A DNA stretch of 64,000 nt from Ceratobasidium sp. AG-K (taxonomy: Eukaryota > Basidiomycota > Agaricomycetes > Cantharellales > Ceratobasidiaceae): positions 1 through 64,000 of the forward strand of contig JAWNGF010000003.1 of assembly GCA_037039685.1 (NCBI GenBank), in the 5' to 3' direction. This document shows, in pieces, positions 1 to 47,697 of the stretch. The notes under the pieces are model-generated. The model searched no databases. It had not been told where the DNA came from and saw only the letters and a program-made list of their open reading frames with translations. A program made the translations under genes and the position numbers. Every line of letters starts with the position of its first letter. Position 1 is the first letter of the stretch.

Positions 1-102
1 TTGCCAAAAATGTTTTGAGAATTCATTTATCCTGAGTTGTAATCGGCATTAGTCTTGACTTGTGATTTGCGAGTTGCTGATGTTTAATGGGTTCCGAGTT
101 TT

Positions 103-236
103 GGGGGCGGCTGCCACCCGCAAGCGGGTCCCGTCAGCCTTATTATACACGTTAACACCCTCTAGTGGGTGGGTTTAGTTGGTGCGCTGGGTGCATAACC
201 TAACAACCTAACTTAACAACATAACCTAACTGCGTG
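103..236. repeat. Non-sub-repeat core block of the satellite unit (first copy)
   Basis: This block, present once per unit, differs from the rest of the AT-rich unit. It holds two short hairpins (CCCGC-AA-GCGGG and CACCC-TCTAGT-GGGTG) followed by a degenerate telomere-like stretch built on CCTAAC (ATAACCTAACAACCTAAC and onwards). CCTAAC is one permutation of the TTAGGG complement, but it is not a perfect telomere tract. It could be a binding site or a remnant of an inserted element; nothing in the sequence decides this. Confidence 0.6.
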
Positions 237-3200
237 TTTTGCTGATTCAGAGCTGTGTCGGAAGTTGATTAACACAAACTTTGTAATCAGCGTTAGTCCC
301 AAATTGTAATGGCCATTAGTATTTGGGAGTAATGGCTGAGTATTTATCCCTTGTAATTGTCATTTATACTTGGTTGGAATCTCAATTAGTCCCGACTTGT
401 AATGCGGGATTAGTGTCAACTTGTAATCAGAAGTATTAGTCCTGACTTGGAATTGCTCATTAGTGTCAGGGGTGTTGCGTTGCAAAGTTGGCAAAAATGT
501 TTGGAAGTCGGGATTAGTCTTGTGTTGTATTCTGGAGTAGACCTCATTAGTCCTGACTTGTAATTGGGATAAGTCGGAACTTGCAAATATCCATTGGTCT
601 TGACTTGTAATCAGCCATTAGCACTGGATTGTAATCTGGATTAGTCCTGACTTGTAGTCTGGATTGGTGCTGTTGCTTTGCAAAATTGCCAAAAATGTTT
701 TGACTTTTGCATTAGTCTTGCATTAGTCTGAGTTGTAATCACCATTAGTGATTGGTTCCAATGGCCCTCACTTCTATTTTCTAATGATCTATTGCTCTGG
801 AATTGTAATCTGGATTAGTGCTGACTTGTAATGCCTGATTAGTCCAAAGTTGTAATAAGCAACTACTTCTGACTTGTAATCAGCATTATTGATGGACTTG
901 TAATCCAGAGTGGTGCTATTGCGTTGCAAAATTGACAAAAATGTCTTGACTTTTCATTAGTATTGGGTAGAAGTAATGCGGATTGGTATTGGACTTGTAA
1001 TCGGAATAAGTGAGAACTTGTAATGGCTGATTAGTCTGGACTTGTAATCAGCTATTTGTTTCTGGGCATAATCTGGATTAGTTCTGACTTGTAATGAGCA
1101 TTAATCTGGACTTGTAATCTGGATTAGTGCTGTTGCTTTGCAAAATTGCCAAAAATGTTTTGAGAATTCATTTATCCTGAGTTGTAATCGGCATTAGTCT
1201 TGACTTGTGATTTGCGAGTTGCTGATGTTTAATGGGTTCCGAGTTTTGGGGGCGGGGGGCCACCCGCAAGCGGGTCCCGTCAGCCTTATTATACACGTTA
1301 ACACCCTCTAGTGGGTGGGTTTAGTTGGTGCGCTGGGTGCATAACCTAACAACCTAACTTAACAACATAACCTAACTGCGTGTTTTGCTGATTCAGAGCT
1401 GTGTCGGAAGTTGATTAACACAAACTTTGTAATCAGCGTTAGTCCCAAATTGTAATGGCCATTAGTATTTGGGAGTAATGGCTGAGTATTTATCCCTTGT
1501 AATTGTCATTTATACTTGGTTGGAATCTCAATTAGTCCCGACTTGTAATGCGGGATTAGTGTCAACTTGTAATCAGAAGTATTAGTCCTGACTTGGAATT
1601 GCTCATTAGTGTCAGGGGTGTTGCGTTGCAAAGTTGGCAAAAATGTTTGGAAGTCGGGATTAGTCTTGTGTTGTATTCTGGAGTAGACCTCATTAGTCCT
1701 GACTTGTAATTGGGATAAGTCGGAACTTGCAAATATCCATTGGTCTTGACTTGTAATCAGCCATTAGCACTGGATTGTAATCTGGATTAGTCCTGACTTG
1801 TAGTCTGGATTGGTGCTGTTGCTTTGCAAAATTGCCAAAAATGTTTTGACTTTTGCATTAGTCTTGCATTAGTCTGAGTTGTAATCACCATTAGTGATTG
1901 GTTCCAATGGCCCTCACTTCTATTTTCTAATGATCTATTGCTCTGGAATTGTAATCTGGATTAGTGCTGACTTGTAATGCCTGATTAGTCCAAAGTTGTA
2001 ATAAGCAACTACTTCTGACTTGTAATCAGCATTATTGATGGACTTGTAATCCAGAGTGGTGCTATTGCGTTGCAAAATTGACAAAAATGTCTTGACTTTT
2101 CATTAGTATTGGGTAGAAGTAATGCGGATTGGTATTGGACTTGTAATCGGAATAAGTGAGAACTTGTAATGGCTGATTAGTCTGGACTTGTAATCAGCTA
2201 TTTGTTTCTGGGCATAATCTGGATTAGTTCTGACTTGTAATGAGATTAATCTGGACTTGTAATCTGGATTAGTGCTGTTGCTTTGCAAAATTGCCAAAAA
2301 TGTTTTGAGAATTCATTTATCCTGAGTTGTAATCGGCATTAGTCTTGACTTGTGATTTGCGAGTTGCTGATGTTTAATGGGTTCCGAGTTTTGGGGGCGG
2401 CTGCCACCCGCAAGCGGGTCCCGTCAGCCTTATTATACACGTTAACACCCTCTAGTGGGTGGGTTTAGTTGGTGCGCTGGGTGCATAACCTAACAACCTA
2501 ACTTAACAACATAACCTAACTGCGTGTTTTGCTGATTCAGAGCTGTGTCGGAAGTTGATTAACACAAACTTTGTAATCAGCGTTAGTCCCAAATTGTAAT
2601 GGCCATTAGTATTTGGGAGTAATGGCTGAGTATTTATCCCTTGTAATTGTCATTTATACTTGGTTGGAATCTCAATTAGTCCCGACTTGTAATGCGGGAT
2701 TAGTGTCAACTTGTAATCAGAAGTATTAGTCCTGACTTGGAATTGCTCATTAGTGTCAGGGGTGTTGCGTTGCAAAGTTGGCAAAAATGTTTGGAAGTCG
2801 GGATTAGTCTTGTGTTGTATTCTGGAGTAGACCTCATTAGTCCTGACTTGTAATTGGGATAAGTCGGAACTTGCAAATATCCATTGGTCTTGACTTGTAA
2901 TCAGCCATTAGCACTGGATTGTAATCTGGATTAGTCCTGACTTGTAGTCTGGATTGGTGCTGTTGCTTTGCAAAATTGCCAAAAATGTTTTGACTTTTGC
3001 ATTAGTCTTGCATTAGTCTGAGTTGTAATCACCATTAGTGATTGGTTCCAATGGCCCTCACTTCTATTTTCTAATGATCTATTGCTCTGGAATTGTAATC
3101 TGGATTAGTGCTGACTTGTAATGCCTGATTAGTCCAAAGTTGTAATAAGCAACTACTTCTGACTTGTAATCAGCATTATTGATGGACTTGTAATCCAGAG

Positions 3201-6200
3201 TGGTGCTATTGCGTTGCAAAATTGACAAAAATGTCTTGACTTCATTAGTATTGGGTAGAAGTAATGCGGATTGGTATTGGACTTGTAATCGGAATAAGTG
3301 AGAACTTGTAATGGCTGATTAGTCTGGACTTGTAATCAGCTATTTGTTTCTGGGCATAATCTGGATTAGTTCTGACTTGTAATGAGCATTAATCTGGACT
3401 TGTAATCTGGATTAGTGCTGTTGCTTTGCAAAATTGCCAAAAATGTTTTGAGAATTCATTTATCCTGAGTTGTAATCGGCATTAGTCTTGACTTGTGATT
3501 TGCGAGTTGCTGATGTTTAATGGGTTCCGAGTTTTGGGGGCGGCTGCCACCCGCAAGCGGGTCCCGTCAGCCTTATTATACACGTTAACACCCTCTAGTG
3601 GGTGGGTTTAGTTGGTGCGCTGGGTGCATAACCTAACAACCTAACTTAACAACATAACCTAACTGCGTGTTTTGCTGATTCAGAGCTGTGTCGGAAGTTG
3701 ATTAACACAAACTTTGTAATCAGCGTTAGTCCAAATTGTAATGGCCATTAGTATTTGGGAGTAATGGCTGAGTATTTATCCCTTGTAATTGTCATTTATA
3801 CTTGGTTGGAATCTCAATTAGTCCCGACTTGTAATGCGGGATTAGTGTCAACTTGTAATCAGAAGTATTAGTCCTGACTTGGAATTGCTCATTAGTGTCA
3901 GGGGTGTTGCGTTGCAAAGTTGGCAAAAATGTTTGGAAGTCGGGATTAGTCTTGTGTTGTATTCTGGAGTAGACCTCATTAGTCCTGACTTGTAATTGGG
4001 ATAAGTCGGAACTTGCAAATATCCATTGGTCTTGACTTGTAATCAGCCATTAGCACTGGATTGTAATCTGGATTAGTCCTGACTTGTAGTCTGGATTGGT
4101 GCTGTTGCTTTGCAAAATTGCCAAAAATGTTTTGACTTTTGCATTAGTCTTGCATTAGTCTGAGTTGTAATCACCATTAGTGATTGGTTCCAATGGCCCT
4201 CACTTCTATTTTCTAATGATCTATTGCTCTGGAATTGTAATCTGGATTAGTGCTGACTTGTAATGCCTGATTAGTCCAAAGTTGTAATAAGCAACTACTT
4301 CTGACTTGTAATCAGCATTATTGATGGACTTGTAATCCAGAGTGGTGCTATTGCGTTGCAAAATTGACAAAAATGTCTTGACTTTTCATTAGTATTGGGT
4401 AGAAGTAATGCGGATTGGTATTGGACTTGTAATCGGAATAAGTGAGAACTTGTAATGGCTGATTAGTCTGGACTTGTAATCAGCTATTTGTTTCTGGGCA
4501 TAATCTGGATTAGTTCTGACTTGTAATGAGCATTAATCTGGACTTGTAATCTGGATTAGTGCTGTTGCTTTGCAAAATTGCCAAAAATGTTTTGAGAATT
4601 CATTTATCCTGAGTTGTAATCGGCATTAGTCTTGACTTGTGATTTGCGAGTTGCTGATGTTTAATGGGTTCCGAGTTTTGGGGGCGGCTGCCACCCGCAA
4701 GCGGGTCCCGTCAGCCTTATTATACACGTTAACACCCTCTAGTGGGTGGGTTTAGTTGGTGCGCTGGGTGCATAACCTAACAACCTAACTTAACAACATA
4801 ACCTAACTGCGTGTTTTGCTGATTCAGAGCTGTGTCGGAAGTTGATTAACACAAACTTTGTAATCAGCGTTAGTCCCAAATTGTAATGGCCATTAGTATT
4901 TGGGAGTAATGGCTGAGTATTTATCCCTTGTAATTGTCATTTATACTTGGTTGGAATCTCAATTAGTCCCGACTTGTAATGCGGGATTAGTGTCAACTTG
5001 TAATCAGAAGTATTAGTCCTGACTTGGAATTGCTCATTAGTGTCAGGGGTGTTGCGTTGCAAAGTTGGCAAAAATGTTTGGAAGTCGGGATTAGTCTTGT
5101 GTTGTATTCTGGAGTAGACCTCATTAGTCCTGACTTGTAATTGGGATAAGTCGGAACTTGCAAATATCCATTGGTCTTGACTTGTAATCAGCCATTAGCA
5201 CTGGATTGTAATCTGGATTAGTCCTGACTTGTAGTCTGGATTGGTGCTGTTGCTTTGCAAAATTGCCAAAAATGTTTTGACTTTTGCATTAGTCTTGCAT
5301 TAGTCTGAGTTGTAATCACCATTAGTGATTGGTTCCAATGGCCCTCACTTCTATTTTCTAATGATCTATTGCTCTGGAATTGTAATCTGGATTAGTGCTG
5401 ACTTGTAATGCCTGATTAGTCCAAAGTTGTAATAAGCAACTACTTCTGACTTGTAATCAGCATTATTGATGGACTTGTAATCCAGAGTGGTGCTATTGCG
5501 TTGCAAAATTGACAAAAATGTCTTGACTTTTCATTAGTATTGGGTAGAAGTAATGCGGATTGGTATTGGACTTGTAATCGGAATAAGTGAGAACTTGTAA
5601 TGGCTGATTAGTCTGGACTTGTAATCAGCTATTTGTTTCTGGGCATAATCTGGATTAGTTCTGACTTGTAATGAGCATTAATCTGGACTTGTAATCTGGA
5701 TTAGTGCTGTTGCTTTGCAAAATTGCAAAAATGTTTTGAGAATTCATTTATCCTGAGTTGTAATCGGCATTAGTCTTGACTTGTGATTTGCGAGTTGCTG
5801 ATGTTTAATGGGTTCCGAGTTTTGGGGGCGGCTGCCACCCGCAAGCGGGTCCCGTCAGCCTTATTATACACGTTAACACCCTCTAGTGGGTGGGTTTAGT
5901 TGGTGCGCTGGGTGCATAACCTAACAACCTAACTTAACAACATAACCTAACTGCGTGTTTTGCTGATTCAGAGCTGTGTCGGAAGTTGATTAACACAAAC
6001 TTTGTAATCAGCGTTAGTCCCAAATTGTAATGGCCATTAGTATTTGGGAGTAATGGCTGAGTATTTATCCCTTGTAATTGTCATTTATACTTGGTTGGAA
6101 TCTCAATTAGTCCCGACTTGTAATGCGGGATTAGTGTCAACTTGTAATCAGAAGTATTAGTCCTGACTTGGAATTGCTCATTAGTGTCAGGGGTGTTGCG

Positions 6201-9200
6201 TTGCAAAGTTGGCAAAAATGTTTGGAAGTCGGGATTAGTCTTGTGTTGTATTCTGGAGTAGACCTCATTAGTCCTGACTTGTAATTGGGATAAGTCGGAA
6301 CTTGCAAATATCCATTGGTCTTGACTTGTAATCAGCCATTAGCACTGGATTGTAATCTGGATTAGTCCTGACTTGTAGTCTGGATTGGTGCTGTTGCTTT
6401 GCAAAATTGCCAAAAATGTTTTGACTTTTGCATTAGTCTTGCATTAGTCTGAGTTGTAATCACCATTAGTGATTGGTTCCAATGGCCCTCACTTCTATTT
6501 TCTAATGATCTATTGCTCTGGAATTGTAATCTGGATTAGTGCTGACTTGTAATGCCTGATTAGTCCAAAGTTGTAATAAGCAACTACTTCTGACTTGTAA
6601 TCAGCATTATTGATGGACTTGTAATCCAGAGTGGTGCTATTGCGTTGCAAAATTGACAAAAATGTCTTGACTTTTCATTAGTATTGGGTAGAAGTAATGC
6701 GGATTGGTATTGGACTTGTAATCGGAATAAGTGAGAACTTGTAATGGCTGATTAGTCTGGACTTGTAATCAGCTATTTGTTTCTGGGCATAATCTGGATT
6801 AGTTCTGACTTGTAATGAGCATTAATCTGGACTTGTAATCTGGATTAGTGCTGTTGCTTTGCAAAATTGCCAAAAATGTTTTGAGAATTCATTTATCCTG
6901 AGTTGTAATCGGCATTAGTCTTGACTTGTGATTTGCGAGTTGCTGATGTTTAATGGGTTCCGAGTTTTGGGGGCGGCTGCCACCCGCAAGCGGGTCCCGT
7001 CAGCCTTATTATACACGTTAACACCCTCTAGTGGGTGGGTTTAGTTGGTGCGCTGGGTGCATAACCTAACAACCTAACTTAACAACATAACCTAACTGCG
7101 TGTTTTGCTGATTCAGAGCTGTGTCGGAAGTTGATTAACACAAACTTTGTAATCAGCGTTAGTCCCAAATTGTAATGGCCATTAGTATTTGGGAGTAATG
7201 GCTGAGTATTTATCCCTTGTAATTGTCATTTATACTTGGTTGGAATCTCAATTAGTCCCGACTTGTAATGCGGGATTAGTGTCAACTTGTAATCAGAAGT
7301 ATTAGTCCTGACTTGGAATTGCTCATTAGTGTCAGGGGTGTTGCGTTGCAAAGTTGGCAAAAATGTTTGGAAGTCGGGATTAGTCTTGTGTTGTATTCTG
7401 GAGTAGACCTCATTAGTCCTGACTTGTAATTGGGATAAGTCGGAACTTGCAAATATCCATTGGTCTTGACTTGTAATCAGCCATTAGCACTGGATTGTAA
7501 TCTGGATTAGTCCTGACTTGTAGTCTGGATTGGTGCTGTTGCTTTGCAAAATTGCCAAAAATGTTTTGACTTTTGCATTAGTCTTGCATTAGTCTGAGTT
7601 GTAATCACCATTAGTGATTGGTTCCAATGGCCCTCACTTCTATTTTCTAATGATCTATTGCTCTGGAATTGTAATCTGGATTAGTGCTGACTTGTAATGC
7701 CTGATTAGTCCAAAGTTGTAATAAGCAACTACTTCTGACTTGTAATCAGCATTATTGATGGACTTGTAATCCAGAGTGGTGCTATTGCGTTGCAAAATTG
7801 ACAAAAATGTCTTGACTTTTCATTAGTATTGGGTAGAAGTAATGCGGATTGGTATTGGACTTGTAATCGGAATAAGTGAGAACTTGTAATGGCTGATTAG
7901 TCTGGACTTGTAATCAGCTATTTGTTTCTGGGCATAATCTGGATTAGTTCTGACTTGTAATGAGCATTAATCTGGACTTGTAATCTGGATTAGTGCTGTT
8001 GCTTTGCAAAATTGCCAAAAATGTTTTGAGAATTCATTTATCCTGAGTTGTAATCGGCATTAGTCTTGACTTGTGATTTGCGAGTTGCTGATGTTTAATG
8101 GGTTCCGAGTTTTGGGGGCGGCTGCCACCCGCAAGCGGGTCCCGTCAGCCTTATTATACACGTTAACACCCTCTAGTGGGTGGGTTTAGTTGGTGCGCTG
8201 GGTGCATAACCTAACAACCTAACTTAACAACATAACCTAACTGCGTGTTTTGCTGATTCAGAGCTGTGTCGGAAGTTGATTAACACAAACTTTGTAATCA
8301 GCGTTAGTCCCAAATTGTAATGGCCATTAGTATTTGGGAGTAATGGCTGAGTATTTATCCCTTGTAATTGTCATTTATACTTGGTTGGAATCTCAATTAG
8401 TCCCGACTTGTAATGCGGGATTAGTGTCAACTTGTAATCAGAAGTATTAGTCCTGACTTGGAATTGCTCATTAGTGTCAGGGGTGTTGCGTTGCAAAGTT
8501 GGCAAAAATGTTTGGAAGTCGGGATTAGTCTTGTGTTGTATTCTGGAGTAGACCTCATTAGTCCTGACTTGTAATTGGGATAAGTCGGAACTTGCAAATA
8601 TCCATTGGTCTTGACTTGTAATCAGCCATTAGCACTGGATTGTAATCTGGATTAGTCCTGACTTGTAGTCTGGATTGGTGCTGTTGCTTTGCAAAATTGC
8701 CAAAAATGTTTTGACTTTTGCATTAGTCTTGCATTAGTCTGAGTTGTAATCACCATTAGTGATTGGTTCCAATGGCCCTCACTTCTATTTTCTAATGATC
8801 TATTGCTCTGGAATTGTAATCTGGATTAGTGCTGACTTGTAATGCCTGATTAGTCCAAAGTTGTAATAAGCAACTACTTCTGACTTGTAATCAGCATTAT
8901 TGATGGACTTGTAATCCAGAGTGGTGCTATTGCGTTGCAAAATTGACAAAAATGTCTTGACTTTTCATTAGTATTGGGTAGAAGTAATGCGGATTGGTAT
9001 TGGACTTGTAATCGGAATAAGTGAGAACTTGTAATGGCTGATTAGTCTGGACTTGTAATCAGCTATTTGTTTCTGGGCATAATCTGGATTAGTTCTGACT
9101 TGTAATGAGCATTAATCTGGACTTGTAATCTGGATTAGTGCTGTTGCTTTGCAAAATTGCCAAAAATGTTTTGAGAATTCATTTATCCTGAGTTGTAATC

Positions 9201-10300
9201 GGCATTAGTCTTGACTTGTGATTTGCGAGTTGCTGATGTTTAATGGGTTCCGAGTTTTGGGGGCGGCTGCCACCCGCAAGCGGGTCCCGTCAGCCTTATT
9301 ATACACGTTAACACCCTCTAGTGGGTGGGTTTAGTTGGTGCGCTGGGTGCATAACCTAACAACCTAACTTAACAACATAACCTAACTGCGTGTTTTGCTG
9401 ATTCAGAGCTGTGTCGGAAGTTGATTAACACAAACTTTGTAATCAGCGTTAGTCCCAAATTGTAATGGCCATTAGTATTTGGGAGTAATGGCTGAGTATT
9501 TATCCCTTGTAATTGTCATTTATACTTGGTTGGAATCTCAATTAGTCCCGACTTGTAATGCGGGATTAGTGTCAACTTGTAATCAGAAGTATTAGTCCTG
9601 ACTTGGAATTGCTCATTAGTGTCAGGGGTGTTGCGTTGCAAAGTTGGCAAAAATGTTTGGAAGTCGGGATTAGTCTTGTGTTGTATTCTGGAGTAGACCT
9701 CATTAGTCCTGACTTGTAATTGGGATAAGTCGGAACTTGCAAATATCCATTGGTCTTGACTTGTAATCAGCCATTAGCACTGGATTGTAATCTGGATTAG
9801 TCCTGACTTGTAGTCTGGATTGGTGCTGTTGCTTTGCAAAATTGCCAAAAATGTTTTGACTTTTGCATTAGTCTTGCATTAGTCTGAGTTGTAATCACCA
9901 TTAGTGATTGGTTCCAATGGCCCTCACTTCTATTTTCTAATGATCTATTGCTCTGGAATTGTAATCTGGATTAGTGCTGACTTGTAATGCCTGATTAGTC
10001 CAAAGTTGTAATAAGCAACTACTTCTGACTTGTAATCAGCATTATTGATGGACTTGTAATCCAGAGTGGTGCTATTGCGTTGCAAAATTGACAAAAATGT
10101 CTTGACTTTTCATTAGTATTGGGTAGAAGTAATGCGGATTGGTATTGGACTTGTAATCGGAATAAGTGAGAACTTGTAATGGCTGATTAGTCTGGACTTG
10201 TAATCAGCTATTTTTTTCTGGCATAATCTGGATTAGTTCTGACTTGTAATGAGCATTAATCTGGACTTGTAATCTGGATTAGTGCTGTTGCTTTGCAAAA

Positions 10301-10746
10301 TTGCCAAAAATGTTTTGAGAATTCATTTATCCTGAGTTGTAATCGGCATTAGTCTTGACTTGTGATTTGCGAGTTGCTGATGTTTAATGGGTTCCGAGTT
10401 TTGGGGGCGGCTGCCACCCGCAAGCGGGTCCCGTCAGCCTTTTTACACGTTAACACCCCTAGTGGGTGGGCTTTGCGCTGGGTGCATAACCCCCTAACTT
10501 AACAACATAACCTAACTCGTGTTTTGCTGATTCAGAGCTGTGTCGGAATTGATTAACACAAACTTTGTAATCAGCGTTAGTCCCAAATTGTAATGGCCAT
10601 TAGTATTTGGGAGTAATGGCTGAGTATTTATCCCTGTAATAGTGTCATTTATACTTGGTTGGAATCTCAATTAGTCCCGACTTGTAATGCGGGATTAGTG
10701 TCAACTTGTAATCAGAAGTATTAGTCCTGACTTGGAATTGCTCATT
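10301..10746. repeat. Truncated, decayed terminal satellite copy
   Basis: The last copy stops at about 445 bp, inside the phrase CTTGGAATTGCTCATT. It carries many small deletions not seen in inner copies, for example loss of bases around AGCCTTTTTACACG and CATAACCCCCTAAC. The end of the preceding unit (10,210-10,220) is also altered. Edge copies of tandem arrays usually escape homogenisation, which fits. Confidence 0.9.
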
Positions 10747-13759: not shown

Positions 13760-14780
13760 AGCCTGGAGGTTGTAAGCTGCCGTTTCTGAGCATGGGCGGA
13801 GTGTCTCACAATGGGTCGCAAGGTGCACAATGCGAACGGCGGTCGGGAGCTGGTCTCAATCTCAGATGAACAATGAGTAGGGCATAGCGCCCTCAGGCAA
13901 TCACCATGCGCATCACACGAACTGCGGTCGAGAGATGCCTTATGGGTAGAACCGCTCCAGCTGGAGTACAATATGCGACCAAGGGCATCAGATGTACAAT
14001 GGGTTACTGCGGTCGAGAGGTGCTTGCAGGCAAACCCACCCCAGCAGGAGTGGAAGATGTATCCTGAGGTGCCTGGCGCGCAATGCGTACCGCGGCCGAA
14101 GCATGCGTGTGGGAACGCTTCCCGCATCAGGGACAAAACGGCTACCATAGACATATAACGCATAGTGCATATCGTGGTTAAGAGGTGCTTGCAGCCGACC
14201 GCATCCTTACGCACCAGGCGCACAGTGCGTACTGCGGTCGCAGCATATGTGTGGGAACGCTTGCCGCATCAGAGACAAACCAGCTACCATAGACATATAA
14301 TGCATCGTACATATAGTTGTTGTGAGGTGCTCGCATGCAGACACATTCGTGGGCACCGGGTGCACATTGCGTACGGCGGTCGCAGCATGCCTGTAGGGAC
14401 TCTTGCCGCATCAGAGACGAAACGGCTACCACAGATATGTAATGCATTGTCCATACATTGGTTCAGGGGTGCTTGCAGGCACACACGTCTTTAGGCACCG
14501 GGCGCACATTGCGTACTGCGGTCGCAGCATGCATGTAGGAATGCTTGCCGCCTCAGAGACAAAACGGCAAACATAGCCATATAACGCATGGTACATATCG
14601 TGGTTGAGAGGTGCTCGCAAGCAGTCCTACCTAGACAACCATGGACTGTGCTTCACTACAAACTAGGCGGATAAAGCGAACTGCAATCGGGGAATGCTCG
14701 CGACCCTTCTTTTGCAGCTCCGTCATAGGAGCTCCAATAAACAAGACATGTGATGCGAACTGCGGTCGGGACCTGCTTGC
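13760..14780. repeat. Diverged 142 bp tandem repeats carrying GCGTACTGCGGTCGCA
   Basis: The motif GCGTAC(T/C/G)GCGG(T/C)CG recurs at 14,085, 14,227, 14,369 and 14,511, exactly 142 bp apart each time. Between motifs the units share GGAACGCTTGCCGCATCAG, GACAAAACGGCTACC and GAGGTGCTTGCAGGC. Further degenerate copies of the motif (GAACTGCGGTCG, TTACTGCGGTCG) flank the array on both sides at irregular spacing. Several open frames cross the repeats on both strands, but only because the unit lacks stops; I do not regard them as genes. Confidence 0.85.
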
Positions 14781-25570: not shown

Positions 25571-26705
25571 TACTCCGGTCGCAAGCCATCTGAGGAGGAG
25601 GGGCGGTACGGCCACTGGCTGGTGGAGTGCTACAGCTGGCGACCGGAGTACGCGAGTTGTACATGGGGCAGTAGCCAACAGATGGTGTGAAGACACACAC
25701 ATGTGTGTTCTGCTGTCAGAGCCAGCAAGATGACCTTCAGACACGCCTGGTCCAGCCGTGGTGGAGGATGCGACCGGAGTACGCAAGGGGCAAGTGGTCG
25801 GCACAAGGGCCCACCACAGAGATGACTGGCTTAGTTTGGCCAGCGGCTATGCAGCTGTCTGCATACTCCGGTCGCAAGCCAGCAAAGGGGGAGAGCGGCA
25901 GAGCAACCGGCAGGTGGGTTGCTGCAGCGGGCGTACGGAGTACGCGAGTTGCCCAGGTGGCATTGGCCGATGGATGTGTGCAGACACACACATAGATAGA
26001 GTCTTACATGTACTTAGTAAATAAATAACTGACGATGCACGTTAGACATTGTATATGCGTGAGAAGTAGATGCTTAGAGGCATGGACCAGTCTGCGTCGT
26101 CCGGACATAAGCTGTAGGACCCACACGCATGCGCGTGTGCCGAATGCTGAGTTCCAACCTACAGCTTATGTCCGGACGACGCAGACTGGTCCATGCCTCT
26201 AAGCATCTACTTCTCACGCATATACAATGTCTAACGTGCATCGTCAGTTATTTATTTACTAAGTACATGTAAGACTCTATCTATGTGTGTGTCTGCACAC
26301 ATCCATCGGCCAATGCCACCTGGGCAACTCGCGTACTCCGTACGCCCGCTGCAGCAACCCACCTGCCGGTTGCTCTGCCGCTCTCCCCCTTTGCTGGCTT
26401 GCGACCGGAGTATGCAGACAGCTGCATAGCCGCTGGCCAAACTAAGCCAGTCATCTCTGTGGTGGGCCCTTGTGCCGACCACTTGCCCCTTGCGTACTCC
26501 GGTCGCATCCTCCACCACGGCTGGACCAGGCGTGTCTGAAGGTCATCTTGCTGGCTCTGACAGCAGAACACACATGTGTGTGTCTTCACACCATCTGTTG
26601 GCTACTGCCCCATGTACAACTCGCGTACTCCGGTCGCCAGCTGTAGCACTCCACCAGCCAGTGGCCGTACCGCCCCTCCTCCTCAGATGGCTTGCGACCG
26701 GAGTA
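25571..26705. repeat. Long near-perfect palindrome (two ~548 bp arms, 39 bp spacer)
   Basis: Bases 25,571-26,118 are the reverse complement of 26,158-26,705, centred on 26,138; I saw no mismatch. The spacer 26,119-26,157 contains its own small hairpin (CACACGC-ATGC-GCGTGTG). Near-identity stops at both outer ends at the phrase TACTCCGGTCGCAAGCC. Beyond that point the flanks still resemble each other, but with many differences. Confidence 0.93.
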
Positions 26706-26918
26706 CGTGGACTGTTTGACACTCCCGGACCCGACTAAACCCACTCATGTATGTGTTGGACCCTTGCACCGATCACTCGCCCCTTGCGTACTCTGGTCGC
26801 ATCCTCCACCACAGCCGGACCATGCGTGTCCGAAGGTGATCTTGCGAGCTCCCACTACAGAACACGCATACATGTGTCTGCAAACGTCCATTGGCTAATG
26901 GCGCTTGGGCAACCCATG

Positions 26919-29315: not shown

Positions 29316-32168
29316 ATGCCTCAGATTATCCACAATCCAAACTCAGCCCCCATCAAGCCCTTGATTGACCAGGGTCTACCATCCATTGTGAATGGAACAC
29401 TGGGAACATTTGTAAACACATACTACAATGAGGCACACCAGGCCAGCCTTGAGACAAGTCTACTAGGCCCCCACACAAAGTTTGCTCTCACTGGACATTT
29501 CACAAATGCTCAAGGTCAAGCACGTCGAATGCGTCTAATGCCTGCCAAGGTGGAGCCAAGACTCCTTGATCAGGTGGCAGATGTGGACTCGGCCATTGGT
29601 TTTGTATTTGCAAATGACCCATTCCCACTTCACATTGGCCACTCCATGTTCTATCAGATGCTGAACAGCACTGATTACACCCTGAGCAAGAGTCTCCATT
29701 TACCTCCATACACTACCAGGGATCAAGATGGTAACATTGTTGAGGTGAGCCCTCTTGTTTCCTATTTTCTGTTGGCATGAACACCAGGTTAGCACAACAA
29801 CAACACTTACCACCTGCACCTAGAGCTTTCAGTATCACAGTGTCCCAAATGCCCTGCTAGGACACATTGGAGGAGCCAACGTTGCCCGAATCCTTGTCAG
29901 GATCATGTTCCCAAAGCTCAGGGGCATGCGCTGTAGCCACAACAGTAACCATGTTGAGTTCCACAAGCTGGAGCTGTTCTATGATCTAGCCATCCGATAT
30001 GCCGTTGAACATGCTATCCCGCTGGAGTCCCATGAAGCATGGCCTGGCAAATACTCCCATGAGTTGCTGCGTGCTCAGCGTGAAAATGGAACTCTGGTGT
30101 ACTCTACTCGAACTATTCCCTCCGAATGTATGGACCAATTCCTACGATGTCTGCGGCAAGCCATCAGTCAGCACCAAGACCTTGCTTGGGCCCAGGACTT
30201 CTGGTTGCAGCTTCAGGTGCAAGGGACCAAGTATGCTGCTCAACACACACCTGGCCCAGCTGAGAAGCCAGAAGAACCTTGTTCAGCTGAAAGAGATGCA
30301 TTTGAAATGGCTCGGATTAATGCTGTGATTACTGCGGTCTATCCAATCAACCTTGACCTGGTCAAGGAGGACTTCTGGTTTGTTGACATTGCCACAACCA
30401 TCCATTCCAGGGATCCAGCAAACGGTTTCTTGCCTAGGGACTCAAAACATGGTTTGCTGCTTAGCTTGGTGACTGGATTACCCCGATATGATGCTAGCAA
30501 ACAACTCGTAAATGCCAAACACCTGTACCATGTGGATGAGTCATCCCACCTAGGATATGCATCTGGCTTTCGTCTCACACTGACAAACCCACCACCATCT
30601 GGAGCATGCTACATCCAGGTATACACTTCGGACAAGCACCTTACCGCACTGAAAGACGGATGGAGCAATGCCAAGCACCTCAAGCCCCGCAAGGTCCTGG
30701 ACAAGTTCGAATCAGCTGACCGGTACCTCGACAGGATTATGAGTCTGTACAGGGATGCCATGGCCGAAGGGGAGGCCGGGAGACGGATCAGTGTCAGGAT
30801 TGAGTCAAGGGTACACCTTGCTCGGGTCATGGACTCGCACCACTGGCTGCCCGAGCAGGAGCTTGCTCAGTGCATCACCTTGACTTCGAACCGCATGTTC
30901 TGGTATGTCTCATGTGCTCCTCATACGCCGTCTGACCGCGACCCGACTGAGCTGACTGTGGCCCCAGGTTCTTCAAAATGATTCGGATTCAGTCCGTCCG
31001 AGCAGCCCTCCAGGCCATAGATCGCAACCGCTTGGCCATTGTTGACGACATGAGCCGAGCATTGCCAACCATGACTTTGATTGCAGGACTGTGCTACATG
31101 GCAAATGCACTCAACAATCGGCCGGATGACAGTACAAGCTACCAAATCTTGCGCGACACACTTTGCATCCACAAAGTCCAGGATGATCACACAGTGGCCA
31201 TCCGTCCGCTGAACGTATTTTTTTGTCACTCGCTCAGGCTTGAGCCGCATCCCCGTTGTTCCAGCCACCGAGTCCTCCCCGGGCAGAGCATGTACGACAT
31301 CTTCCACTTTAAAAACAGAACATCGGCCCAACTCGATCTCCAAGGTGTGCTCACCGCCTCCAGACAGAGTGAAGCACCACTAGCTCGAGGTGGTAATGGT
31401 GGCCAGGATTCCGAGGACAACCAACAGGAAGAACGGGATGATGCGGAGCCCAAGAGCAAAGTCAGCCGGGCGGCACGTATGGTGGTCTTTGTGCCAGAAG
31501 AAGCTGAGGATGTCATCACAGACGATGAGCTGCGCAGGTTGCCCCAGCTGAGGGCCGCCGGGCCTGGCCAAGGCTACGAGTCCGAGGAGGAAGACCCCGA
31601 GCCAAGGGAAGTCATGGAGACCCTCGGAGAGATGATGAACGGCATTTTCAAGGAGATCCCCATCTCCATCATGAAGAAGGTGTCCGAGACTGGTGGAAAA
31701 TCCTGGAGGAAGATTGACGACAATCTTTGCAGCCAGCAGACATGGAGGAATTGCCTATGTGATGCTACCCAACTCCCCGAGCTGCTGGTTGCCTTCAGGC
31801 AAGTGTCCAGCCAAGAGCAATGGGAAGGGGTGGTGAAAAGGATCTTCCCGACCCAAGAGGAACAAGCTGTCCTGAAGTCCAAGGGGTTGCAAGGGTGGAA
31901 GCAATCTCCTTTCTGGATAAGATGGGAGCAGCTACTTGCCATTCCAAGCTGGACAAAAGCTGACAGGCGGAAGATTGTTGAGTTTGCTAGAAGGAAGATG
32001 AGGGAAGAGGCACAGTGGTTGCCACTTGGGGCTGCTGATAGAATGTGGACAGATAAAGGGCCCAGAGGCTTGACAATCTATGGGCGAGCCATGGCAGGCA
32101 AGCTTGGGATGGTTGTGGTGCTCAACCCCAAGTTTGCAAATGACATGAAGAAGCCAGGGGGACATTGA
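29316..32168 (+). CDS. Gene B: large uncharacterised protein, intact member of the A/B family
   Basis: Exons 29,316-29,744, 29,833-30,902 and 30,968-32,168 sum to 2,700 nt and encode 899 residues. Introns are GTGAGC..TTTCAG and GTATGT..CCCCAG; the second falls inside DFW|FFKM and is shared with gene A. The first two exons contain mixed alpha/beta-like sequence with many conserved aromatics (VDSAIGFVF, LFYDLAIRY, WAQDFWLQLQVQG, TALKDGWSNAKHLKP). The C-terminal half has a charged linker (SKVSRAARMVVFVPEEAED, YESEEEDPE) and a closing domain with RQVSS, EEAQWLPLG and VVVLNP. There is no signal peptide or transmembrane span. I cannot name a family. The presence of two copies in 20 kb suggests a lineage-specific multicopy gene, possibly transposon- or subtelomere-linked. 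Confidence 0.85.
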
Positions 32169-37655: not shown

Positions 37656-40600
37656 TAAAGCCATTTGCTCATTGGTCCCCGAGGAATCGCGGCGTCGACG
37701 AGTCGAAGCCCGCTGCGTCTCGGGAGACCTGCTTTCGGGCCGGTCTCGCTTCCTGCCGACGTCTTCTGGGCGCTGGGTAAACGGCGGGATAACCGCATCG
37801 CGGGTCCGATCTGCGAGGCCGAGATCGTCGAGCTCTTGGGAAAGCCGTTCCTGAGCATAGGCACTTGGGTCGTACTGCGAATGCTCCGTCGTTTGAGCGC
37901 TGGTCGTTGCCTGTGACGCGCCGGTACCAAACGGGATCTCGCCACGCCACGAGTCAACACGCCTGCCCGTCTCCTCGTTCGACTGAGTGTCACGGACAAG
38001 CACTTCGTGCTCAAGCTGACTGGACGTCGTATCCCCGATCGGGTGGTCTGCCTGCGCTGCGATGACGTCTAGCACAGGTACACCGAGAGGCGGCATCGTC
38101 TGTGGCTCACCAGGGCTGGGAGAGCTCCTTGGCATGTAAGTCGAGCCGCTGCCCTGCGTGGGGGATACGAGGAGTAGCCGAGGAACGGCGTGCTCCCGCC
38201 GGCTTGGGGGGGGCTGGAGGGGGCATCAGGCCGACGGAGCGAGGCGAGCCTTGGATTCGGGGGGTGGGTGTCGGCGGAGCGCTGGCTGCGTCAGCAACAC
38301 TGGCAGCGGGAGGCTTCGCAGGTGGCGCAGTGCGCGCGTCATCCTCGGATCGTGTGGCAGTTGGCGCTTGGATTGCCGAGGTAGCCGTCCCGGTGCGGTC
38401 GTGCTCGGACAACCGGAGGCCGGTGCTGGGCCTCGGCCTGGCCTTCGGTTTGGGCTTCGGCTTGGAGTCCGAAGGCGGTGTCGATGTCTTGGCGCTCGCC
38501 GATGGCAGATCGATATACGGCTGTGGACGCTTCTTGGGTGACAGCTTGGCCGGAGTGGACGCCGAGGTAGTCGCTTGGACCGCGGGAGCTACCGGGAGCG
38601 AAGAGTGGTCTCTCAGCGACTGAGCACCCAAGGTGGGACGGACAACTCACCAGTGCCTGACCCAGACGGCGCGCCACCCGTAGAGCTTGGGTTAAGGTAG
38701 TCAGGCAAAGGGCGCTCGTTGAGGGCCACGAGCATCCCTTGGGCTGCCTCCCAGGTAATCTCGCCCTCCCCCGTCCCGATTCGCCCGAGAACAGTCGCTT
38801 GGATTGGGGACAGCATGTCCGGCTGGGTGTCAATATCCATCGACTCTGGCTCGGGTTCCGAGCCAGAATCGTCTTCAATCGGCAGCTCGGTTGCCTTGCC
38901 CTTGCCTTTGCCCGTGGTGGCGCCCTTACCCTTACCCCTTGCCTTGTCTGCCTCCTCGGGCTCGTCCTCCCAGTTCTCGAGAATGTGGGTGACCTGGGGT
39001 GATGGCACCAGAGGGCGAGTTGCCTGCTCGTCCCGAGCCCTGAGCCGAACCATGATCGCCGCTTGCTTCGCGTGCCGCTCCTCGTTCGTCCGGACACTGT
39101 CCTGGTACTCGGCCCGTGCTTTCTCTGAGGCGGCCTGTTTGGCGGACTTGCGAGGTTTCGGTGCCGGCGGGCCGGCATCATCGGTCTGTTGGTCCGAGGG
39201 GGTCTTTCTACTCTTGCGACGCTTTTTGACGGGCGGGGCAGCGGGATCCTGGTCTTCGTCTTCGGCCTCGGGATCATCGGTCTGGTCCTTGGCCTCGAGC
39301 TGGCGTTCGCGCGACTTCTTTGGTCTGGACTCGGTCGTCGACGACGCTGTCGGCTGCTGACCGCCGTTCGATGGCTCTCGACCAGTGGATGTATTCGTCT
39401 TGGCTGTACCCTTGCTCGTCAAGGCGCGGGAGTGGGCCGGAGGTATGCGGACCCCAGTTGCTCTCTTGGCCGGCTTGTCGGCGGTGGTCTGAGCGACGTC
39501 GGTATCCTCGATTTTTGTCTTGGATCTCGACTTGGCCTTGGCCTTGGACTTGGACTTGGGCTCGGTCTTCGCCTTGCCGCCTCCACCCGCCCGGGGTTTC
39601 GCTTTCGACTTGCGTGCCGGCTTGCCGCTCTGGTCGTCGTCGTCGTCGCCGCCGTCAACGCCGTCGTCATCCGTGCCATCCGAGTCATCCGAGTTACCCC
39701 AGTCGTCGTCGTCAAAGCCGGGCAGACCCCTCGTGACGCACTCGAGCGTGAAACACTGCATCATCAGTTTCTTCCCGCTGGCGTAGGTGAGTAGATATTG
39801 GTCGCAGGTGTTCCGGGTAATAATCCTGTAGACAAAAACCCGACGAGTCTGACCGCGACGTTGCGCCCGACCTTCGATTTGCTGCACCTCAGAGTCCGAC
39901 CAGGGATGATCCTGCGACGGGATGGTTTGTCGCATTGAATGAATCCCACGCGCAGCCCAAGAGTGCACGGCCGGAGCGTTCGGTTCGTCCGAGGTCGGAC
40001 CCCGTATGACGAATTTGACGCGCAGGAGGGCCCGTACCACGGCGAGTGATTAGCCGACAATCGGGCCGTCAAACCGGTTGTGTCGAACGCCGGATGATAC
40101 GGAAGCACCGAGCACGTGATGGGGCACGGTCAGCGTGTTGAGGGCAATGTTATCATGTGCCGTTGTGTTAATGGCATATGAGATACATATGTGATATAGT
40201 ATATCATATAGACCGTTTAATCAGATGGTGCTCTGGATGTCGGGGTATATGACGCCGCTCACCAAGAAGATTACAACTGAACCTCGTTGGAGGTTTAGTC
40301 CCTGGCCACCGACGTCGCTCAGCAAAAGGACGTCGGTATCGTCGTCCGTCTGGAACTCCTTCACTACCACGTCGCGATCCTCCGGTTCCATTTGGCCGTT
40401 GATCTGCGCGCTTTTGATGCCGTGCAGATCAAGAACCTGTGCGCGTTGCATCCGGTCAGTCATGGCTATCTCGCCGGAAGCATACCCTCACATGAGCAGC
40501 CAGAGTCCAGCTCACGGACAAGTGACAATAGACGATGATTTTGCGTTTCGGAGTCTTTACACCCGGTGTCTTTCTGGGGGAAGGAAACTCCTCCGGCGCG

Positions 40601-46256: not shown

Positions 46257-46312
46257 GGCCGCCGTGCCGCTTAGCGTGGGAGTTCCTTGGCCCCCAGCAG
46301 ATATATAAACAA

Positions 46313-46387
46313 GGGGATGAGCACTGATGAGGTGTCATACCGAAAGCGCTAGTTCACGTTGTGTGCTAGCCCTTTGCTTTCATCCCC
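46313..46387 (+). ncRNA. Type I hammerhead ribozyme, copy 1
   Basis: Stem I: GGGGATGA..GCA pairs with TGC..TCATCCCC around a TT bulge. Core CTGATGA, then stem II GGTG/TACC with loop TCA, then GAAA. Stem III: GCGCTAG with CTAGCCC (one C-C mismatch), extended by CAC/GTG. The predicted cleavage follows CUU, after 46,374. All invariant core bases are present. Confidence 0.87.
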
Positions 46388-46450
46388 ACTTCGCTCGTGC
46401 TCGCTGCGCTTTGCACTCGCTCCGTTCCATCCCGTTTCTAACCTAACCTA

Positions 46451-46738
46451 AAAACTTGGTAGGGCTCGACGTGGACAAAGGGTCTCGACCCTTGGTTCTG
46501 TCGGTCCGACTACTCCGAAGCCCGAACTCCCCGGCTCAGTTCCCCGCACTTGTTGGCGGGTCGAACTCTGGGGTCGAGGCTATAAGCGTCCTGTTACAGG
46601 CCGGGCCGGCGTCGCTGTGTCTTCCTGCTGCGCTTAGCGCCGGGGATTCGCAGGTGCCTGTTGTCAGGTGCCTAAGTGACGTGGAACAATTTAGCATACG
46701 TGGGCTCGCTTAGGCGGACACGTGTAGCCGAGGAGTGA
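46451..46738. other. Extra segment between ribozyme copies 1 and 2
   Basis: After CTAACCTAAC the first unit continues into ~290 bp of sequence (CTTGGTAGGGCTCGACGTGG onwards) absent from the other units, then rejoins at GGCCGGCTGCCAAGGATTCG. It accounts for most of the 627 bp spacing. It may be an insertion, or the remains of a longer form of the element. Confidence 0.6.
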
Positions 46739-46797
46739 CGTGGCCGGCTGCCAAGGATTCGTTCCTTTGTACCGTGCCGAGTGGCGTGGTCTTGGCT

Positions 46798-46813
46798 GTT
46801 GACACGTGTCAAC
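46798..46813. promoter_or_regulatory. 16 bp perfect palindrome GTTGACACGTGTCAAC, first of three
   Basis: Repeats at 47,109-47,124 and 47,420-47,435, once per unit. Its centre CACGTG is the E-box recognised by bHLH factors in fungi. A regulatory role is inference. Confidence 0.4.
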
Positions 46814-46927
46814 TTCGGCCGCCGAGATCCATGTTGTCATACTATCATTCGCTGATAGGTTATCTCGCTTAAATCACCAAGCCGGCCGCCGTGCCGCTTA
46901 GCGTGGGAGTTCCTTGGCTCCCAGCAG

Positions 46928-46936
46928 ATATATAAA
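46928..46936 (+). promoter_or_regulatory. TATATAAA just upstream of the ribozyme (copy 2; also in copies 1 and 3)
   Basis: A TATA-like ATATATAAAC precedes each hammerhead by a few bases. If it were a TATA box, transcription would start about 20 bp into or beyond the ribozyme, so tandem copies would be needed to yield a full monomer. It may be coincidental. Confidence 0.25.
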
Positions 46937-46939
46937 CAA

Positions 46940-47014
46940 GGGGATGAGCACTGATGAGGTGTCATACCGAAAGCGCTAGTTCACGCTGTGTGCTAGCCCT
47001 TTGCTTTCATCCCC
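46940..47014 (+). ncRNA. Type I hammerhead ribozyme, copy 2
   Basis: Same fold as copy 1: stem I 46,940-46,950 with 47,002-47,014, CTGATGA 46,951-46,957, stem II 46,958-46,968, GAAA 46,969-46,972, stem III 46,973-46,999. Predicted cleavage is after 47,001. The stem III apical loop is GCT instead of GTT, which does not affect pairing. Confidence 0.88.
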
Positions 47015-47250
47015 ACTTTGCACTCGCTCCGTTCCATCCCGTTTCTAACCTAACCCGGCTGCCAAGGATTCGTTCCTTTGTACCGTGCCGAGTGGTGTGG
47101 TCTCGGCTGTTGACACGTGTCAACTTTGGCCGCCGAGATCCATGTTGTCATACTATCATTCGCTGATAGGTTATCTCGCTTAAATCACCAAGCCGGCCGC
47201 CGTGCCGCTTAGCGTGGGAGTTCCTTGGCTCCCAGCAGATATATAAACAA

Positions 47251-47325
47251 GGGGATGAGCACTGATGAGGTGTCATACCGAAAGCGCTAGTTCACGCTGT
47301 GTGCTAGCCCTTTGCTTTCATCCCC
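47251..47325 (+). ncRNA. Type I hammerhead ribozyme, copy 3
   Basis: Identical to copy 2 over all 75 nt. Predicted cleavage is after 47,312, so cleavage at copies 2 and 3 would release a 311 nt monomer with 5'-OH and 2',3'-cyclic phosphate ends, as is known for hammerheads. Confidence 0.88.
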
Positions 47326-47561
47326 ACTTCGCACTCGCTCCGTTCCATCCCGTTTCTAACCTAACCCGGCTGCCAAGGATTCGTTCCTTTGTACCGTGCC
47401 GAGTGGTGTGGTCTCGGCTGTTGACACGTGTCAACTTTGGCCGCCGAGATCCATGTTGTCATACTATCATTCGCTGATAGGTTATCTCGCTTAACTCGCC
47501 AAGCCGGCCGCTGTGCCGCTTAGCGTGGGAGTTCCTTGGCTCCCAGCAGATATATATACAA

Positions 47562-47636
47562 GGGGATGAGCACTGATGAGGTGTCATACCAAAAGCGCTA
47601 GTATACGTTGTGTGCTAGCCCTTTGCTTTCATCCCC
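47562..47636 (+). ncRNA. Hammerhead ribozyme, copy 4, probably inactive
   Basis: Same layout, but the core reads ACCAAAAGCG where the others read ACCGAAAGCG, so G12, the general-base guanine, has become A. The stem III apex is TATAC/GTGTG instead of TTCAC/GTGTG, and still pairs. It is the last unit of the array, followed by unrelated sequence. Confidence 0.82.
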
Positions 47637-47697
47637 ACTTCGCTCGTGCTCGCTGCGCTTCGCACTCGCTCCGTTCCATCCCGTTCCTAACCTAAAC

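Follow-up and report, generated by a model that had tools for sequence, protein, structure and literature searches.

A tandem hammerhead array in Ceratobasidium sp. AG-K very likely consists of truncated copies of a telomere-attaching PLE

The window analyzed here, a stretch of 64,000 nucleotides from the genome of Ceratobasidium sp. AG-K, contains between positions 46257 and 47697 a short array of tandem units carrying hammerhead-like motifs. The locus raises the question of whether these units form an element of their own, as an earlier note made from the letters had proposed, or belong to another one. Our analysis argues strongly for the latter: the array very likely represents four 5'-truncated copies of the 3' terminal repeat (pLTR) of a fungal, telomere-attaching Penelope-like element (PLE) devoid of endonuclease.

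All four 75-nt segments reported for the array were confirmed at the positions given below, with spacings of 627, 311 and 311, and TRF yielded a 311-bp array with 97% matches. The 8-bp outer stem, the GCA/TGC inner stem, CTGATGA, the 3-bp stem II and a U-U at the cut point were also recovered in the segments. Stem III was present as described, except that it includes one C-C mismatch, whereas the statement that each segment carries GAAA failed for copy 4, which reads AAAA.

46313..46387 (+): hammerhead 1, intact core, predicted cut after 46374
46940..47014 (+): hammerhead 2, intact core, predicted cut after 47001
47251..47325 (+): hammerhead 3, intact core, predicted cut after 47312
47562..47636 (+): hammerhead 4, carrying A instead of G12 at 47591, predicted inactive, missed by the hammerhead descriptor

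When a hammerhead descriptor was run over both strands of the 64 kb, exactly three sites were obtained, corresponding to copies 1 to 3, while dinucleotide shuffles gave one match in 60. These three of the four window copies satisfied the type I core (CTGANGA, GAAA, UH, three stems and an open stem I). The covariance-model check proposed in the earlier note gave no significant match to the Rfam hammerhead in the window, which is the first of the outcomes listed there as speaking against the proposal. The Rfam scan of the window returned nothing at gathering level, that of 1,601 bases around the array returned nothing at E values of ≤10, and RF00163 gave no match above the cut-off across the genome. 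Similarly, Rfam yielded no hammerhead in two of the genomic copies (L047 and L049), and a search for the ribozyme core in viral_contigs gave 0 matches. In a 91-base scan, RAGATH-1 (RF03152) ranked first of 4,227 families and aligned the window core correctly; however, the score of 17.7 bits (E = 0.44), compared with a gathering score of 56.3, makes the motif a nonmember of that family under the Rfam rule.

The 76-nt stretches folded better than their own shuffles (z from −3.5 to −4.6). The minimum-energy fold was not the hammerhead, forcing the latter cost approximately 3 kcal/mol for copy 1 and 3.5 to 4.4 kcal/mol for two variants, and the hammerhead-compatible part of the ensemble amounted to 0.35%. 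In the RNAalifold consensus, stem III was retained and the core was paired otherwise than in a hammerhead. These folding energies were weighed lightly because tertiary contacts are left out of them.

To the motif in the window, dispersed copies could be added, whose existence the earlier note had raised: a 171-base query gave at least 42 matches in the 53.6-Mb genome. Forty copies that include the ribozyme's 5' half were collected, and six of them, lying in a near-identical block of contig C3, were left out, giving 34 distinct copies. CTGATGA was kept in 32 of these, GAAA in 26, and both in 25, with the G12-to-A change present in 7 copies at a site that sits in a CpG. Within subfamily A (27 copies), variation was 0 to 0.7% in stems I and II, 4.1% in stem III plus its loop and 4.9% in the 3' flank; taken as a whole, the ribozyme (2.0%) was no better conserved than the sequence upstream of it (2.5% and 1.4%), while G12 alone varied by 18.5%. 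A second subfamily (C1:104932, C10:160255, C4:296138 and C17:188.8k) has a different upstream hairpin and a different stem III. The diverged subfamily retains the ribozyme core, and four stem III pairs are altered on both sides with pairing maintained (3 of 13 aligned rows). Copy L049 carries another stem III variant, with a C at the cleavage position.

In the alignment of 13 copies, 92% of the stem III cells pair, versus 37 to 60% in slid registers, and three measures beat every one of 500 shuffles. The controls were not exceeded in the count of altered pairs (61 of 500) or in that of pair types (493 of 500). Since the stem III changes are essentially a single split between subfamilies, they were counted as about one event. 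The type I identity claimed for the motif is backed by the conserved core and the compensatory stem III changes, although neither Rfam nor energy folding supports it. On balance, we consider it very probable that the window motif is a type I hammerhead, for which self-cleavage is predicted from the sequence.

An alternative reading of this conservation is that the hammerhead fold has been preserved because the reverse transcriptase (RT) recognizes it as a structural 3' element, with catalysis weak or unused. The genomic 5' ends are in agreement with it. A 74-base query starting just past the cut gave 42 candidates, of which 40 matches were scored, and none of them begins at the cut site, as element sequence is found 5' of the cut at each locus examined. 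One additional 5' joint, at L054, lies downstream of the cut. The U at the cleavage position and the copies that have lost G12 also point to a structural role, in accordance with the anole PLE, for which insertion in vitro is described as unaffected by ribozyme mutants (PMC11167929). However, CTGATGA and GAAA, which are catalytic rather than pairing residues, are the motifs kept together in most of the copies, and loss of G12 within a CpG fits the decay of old copies. A purely structural role is thus considered unlikely.

The layout of the array was established by BLAST with a single genomic copy of the element as the template, giving the following features, each copy being read as a 5'-truncated PLE 3' end.

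46257..46452 (+): copy 1, probable 5'-truncated PLE 3' end, starting at template position 4039
46301..46310 (+): TATA-like word read in the sequence directly 5' of hammerhead 1; others at 46928, 47239 and 47550
46438..46452 (+): 3' tail CTAACCTAACCTAA, reverse complement of the (TTAGG)n telomere repeat; likewise at 47045-47055, 47356-47366 and 47687-47696
46455..47055 (+): copy 2, probable 5'-truncated PLE 3' end, the longest of the four, starting at template position 3611
46905..46922 (+): GGGAG/CTCCC hairpin located 5' of the TATA-like word of copy 2; present too in copies 3 and 4, and with one base altered in copy 1
47055..47366 (+): copy 3, probable 5'-truncated PLE 3' end, starting at template position 3899
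47366..47696 (+): copy 4, probable 5'-truncated PLE 3' end, with the truncation point of copy 3 (template position 3899)

The four units are joined head-to-tail at CTAACC, and the TATA-like words may be used as promoters. Unit 3 shows 4 mismatches in 311 with respect to unit 2, whereas the comparison of units 2 and 4 gives 13 base differences and 21 gap columns. Copy 1 has a duplicate at C3:289.8k. In a search of the genome, the 311-bp junction common to copies 3 and 4 occurred at only four places, two in the array and two in its duplicate at C3:290.5k. This confinement fits the tandem duplication of a single truncated copy, which is the most likely origin of the exact 311-bp repetition.

These results bear on the proposal of an independent fungal non-LTR retrozyme, whose 311-nt monomers would be excised, circularized and reinserted with the help of a PLE. 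The tandem noncoding units of approximately 300 bp with type I hammerheads do resemble the animal non-LTR retrozymes described in PMC7229834, and one 311-nt interval is flanked by intact ribozymes. Nevertheless, the junction search revealed no dispersed nonautonomous family with the same unit, such as a retrozyme would have; copy 4 lacks G12, leaving 47002-47312 as the only 311-nt interval between two intact cores; and the remaining copies are independent PLE truncations. Unlike those of animal retrozymes, the array units are 3' end fragments of an autonomous element rather than a dispersed family. An independent retrozyme is accordingly very improbable, and the description of the locus as a separate, undescribed retrozyme-like array is not supported, the units being read instead as truncated PLE ends.

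The 311-bp tandem could also have been formed by reverse transcription round a circular 311-nt RNA instead of by DNA duplication. Rolling copying would give one junction common to units 2 to 4, as observed, but the divergence of unit 4 from unit 2 and the lack of dispersal of the junction make this origin very improbable. The array might also be a nascent retrozyme, in which the tandem truncated PLE ends yield a ribozyme-cut circular RNA of 311 nt (47002-47312) that is copied by the parent RT at chromosome ends. We regard this as a distant prospect; if true, it would show how retrozymes split from PLEs and would bring retrozymes to fungi.

The reading of the units as truncated, telomere-attached PLE ends draws on the junctions of the genomic copies. 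Contig C1 ends in (TTAGG)16 set on a 5'-truncated copy, and at the start of contig C5 stands the complement of this repeat, whereas (TTAGGG)4 was absent. Rhizoctonia scaffold ends are also given as (TTAGG)n, though the methods of that report name TTAGGG (PMC7884421). Eleven of the 34 copies follow a preceding copy head-to-tail, and the 23 other (free) copies show 22 different 5' ends. A telomere-type word was found at the 5' junction, counted from 16 bases ahead of the joint to 6 beyond it, in 20 of the 23 free copies, compared with an expectation of 3.9% of 22-base windows, and within 40 bases of the joint in 22 of them. The three free ends without telomere words at the junction include window copy 1, which has TAACC approximately 20 bases upstream. 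At the 3' end, CTAACC was seen by eye in 33 of the 34 copies. As for their location, 24 of the 34 copies, which are not independent of one another, are found no more than 500 kb from a contig end, a zone that makes up 28% of the length of the ten contigs in question, and 19 of 34 are oriented toward contig ends, with no clear bias over chance.

The flanks at L045, L026, L041, L030 and L040 have common words ending in TTAACC or TATAACC, which suggests that this genome contains further repeats of telomere-attached or subtelomeric type.

Short, noncoding, dispersed units with a TATA-like box could also be solo LTRs or TRIMs of Helenus-like nonautonomous LTR elements; the LTRs of Helenus are described as tRNA-like, and its target duplications as 5 bp long (PMC10886601). 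This candidate, to which we attach a negligible probability, was rejected because the 5' ends vary and the tails are telomere-like. The telomerase-like fold predicted for the RT also argues against it.

The RT in question is encoded by the long copies, which have a common upstream reading frame; a 600-amino-acid piece of it matched six places in the genome, and at three places the frame spans 1,109 amino acids from the first M. It contains Pfam RVT_1 at its cut-off. The GIY-YIG domain, sought with Pfam, was absent from the 1,109-amino-acid frame and present in homologues P0079 and P0080, the former (RT plus GIY-YIG) showing 26% identity to the frame. A protein search with the RT scored 7,993 candidates, 81 of which matched at E values of ≤1e-5; the organism names listed were fungal, and of the named matches, that from Ceratobasidium sp. 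AG-Ba had the highest identity (65%, covering 30% of the query). The AlphaFold model of the RT had a mean pLDDT of 83. Telomerase TERT ranked first with this model in both Foldseek and VIA-align, with somewhat lower Z values for other RTs and for viral polymerases, and a sequence search of solved structures gave a best E value of 0.14. The RT thus appears akin to those of telomerase and PLEs, its predicted fold fitting telomerase best.

One of the three long frames is flanked by hammerhead-bearing pLTRs at locus L059, located at a contig end, where the order is (CCTAA)16, pLTR with hammerhead, ORF, 3' untranslated region and pLTR with hammerhead. A distance of 4,230 bp separates the two hammerheads, and the pLTRs match each other at 99.5% over 222 bp. 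The dependence of the array on another element, anticipated in the earlier note, is supported, with this candidate autonomous element and its 1,109-amino-acid RT present in the same genome.

In the mechanism that we favor, the RNA tail CCUAACC would pair with an exposed (TTAGG)n chromosome end, where the telomerase-like RT would copy the RNA, usually stopping early. The truncated end would then receive (TTAGG)n repeats, and repeated attachment would build head-to-tail stacks of copies. Annealing and copying at chromosome ends have been proposed for Terminons (PMC6431247) and for endonuclease-deficient PLEs (PMC3846280). For its part, the hammerhead would cut multimeric or read-through transcripts to element-length RNA. 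Because copy 4 is predicted not to cut, the array could yield only one RNA of 627 nt (46375-47001) and, possibly, a single one of 311 nt (47002-47312).

The element resembles endonuclease-deficient telomeric PLEs and Terminons, such as Athena of rotifers, in the lack of an endonuclease domain, the 5' truncation with telomere repeats, the head-to-tail stacks and the reverse-complement telomere repeats 3' of a hammerhead, as described in PMC6431247 and PMC3846280. It differs from them in its fungal host, its (TTAGG)n telomeres, its small 4.2-kb unit and the approximately 50 bases from ribozyme to tail. Coprina, a fungal group of endonuclease-deficient telomeric PLEs, would share the features listed above. 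The hammerheads, like those of PLE pLTRs, are of type I and located in pLTRs, but they have a long stem III, whereas the published ones are described as mostly minimal, without helix III (PMC6155905, PMC7761336 and PMC11167929). The pLTR hammerheads of PLEs, telomere-attached PLEs with hammerheads (in rotifers) and endonuclease-less fungal PLEs are all in print (PMC6431247, PMC6155905, PMC7761336 and PMC3846280). The element is therefore a further, clear example of an already known type, a telomeric PLE carrying a hammerhead. Our literature search found no paper on fungal PLE hammerheads, from which absence from print is not claimed; a 2014 abstract by Cervera and de la Pena reportedly mentions monomer-stable hammerheads in fungal PLEs.

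What part hammerheads play in PLEs has been called unknown (PMC7761336). Here, one fungal unit of 4.2 kb, with near-identical copies, combines a telomerase-like RT, telomere attachment and a ribozyme, and the natural G12 variants, the diverged subfamily with compensatory stem changes and the telomere-capped copy bring that part within reach of a test.

Other repeats were also observed in the window. Positions 1-10600 contain a tandem satellite of approximately 1,144 bp, with nine full, near-identical copies and a GC content of 0.40, below that of the rest, and TRF yielded tandem units of 142 bp at 14061-14624 and of 294 bp at 26283-26900. The stretches 30000-30600 and 46257-47697 appear again, near-identical, approximately 243 to 244 kb away on C3 (C3:274476, 289.8k and 368-370k), as do C3:125k and 368k, reflecting either a large segmental duplication or an assembly artefact. 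On the minus strand, an ORF at 38613-40040 includes a QxxGRxxRxGQ-like stretch that presumably recalls a helicase C-terminal domain.
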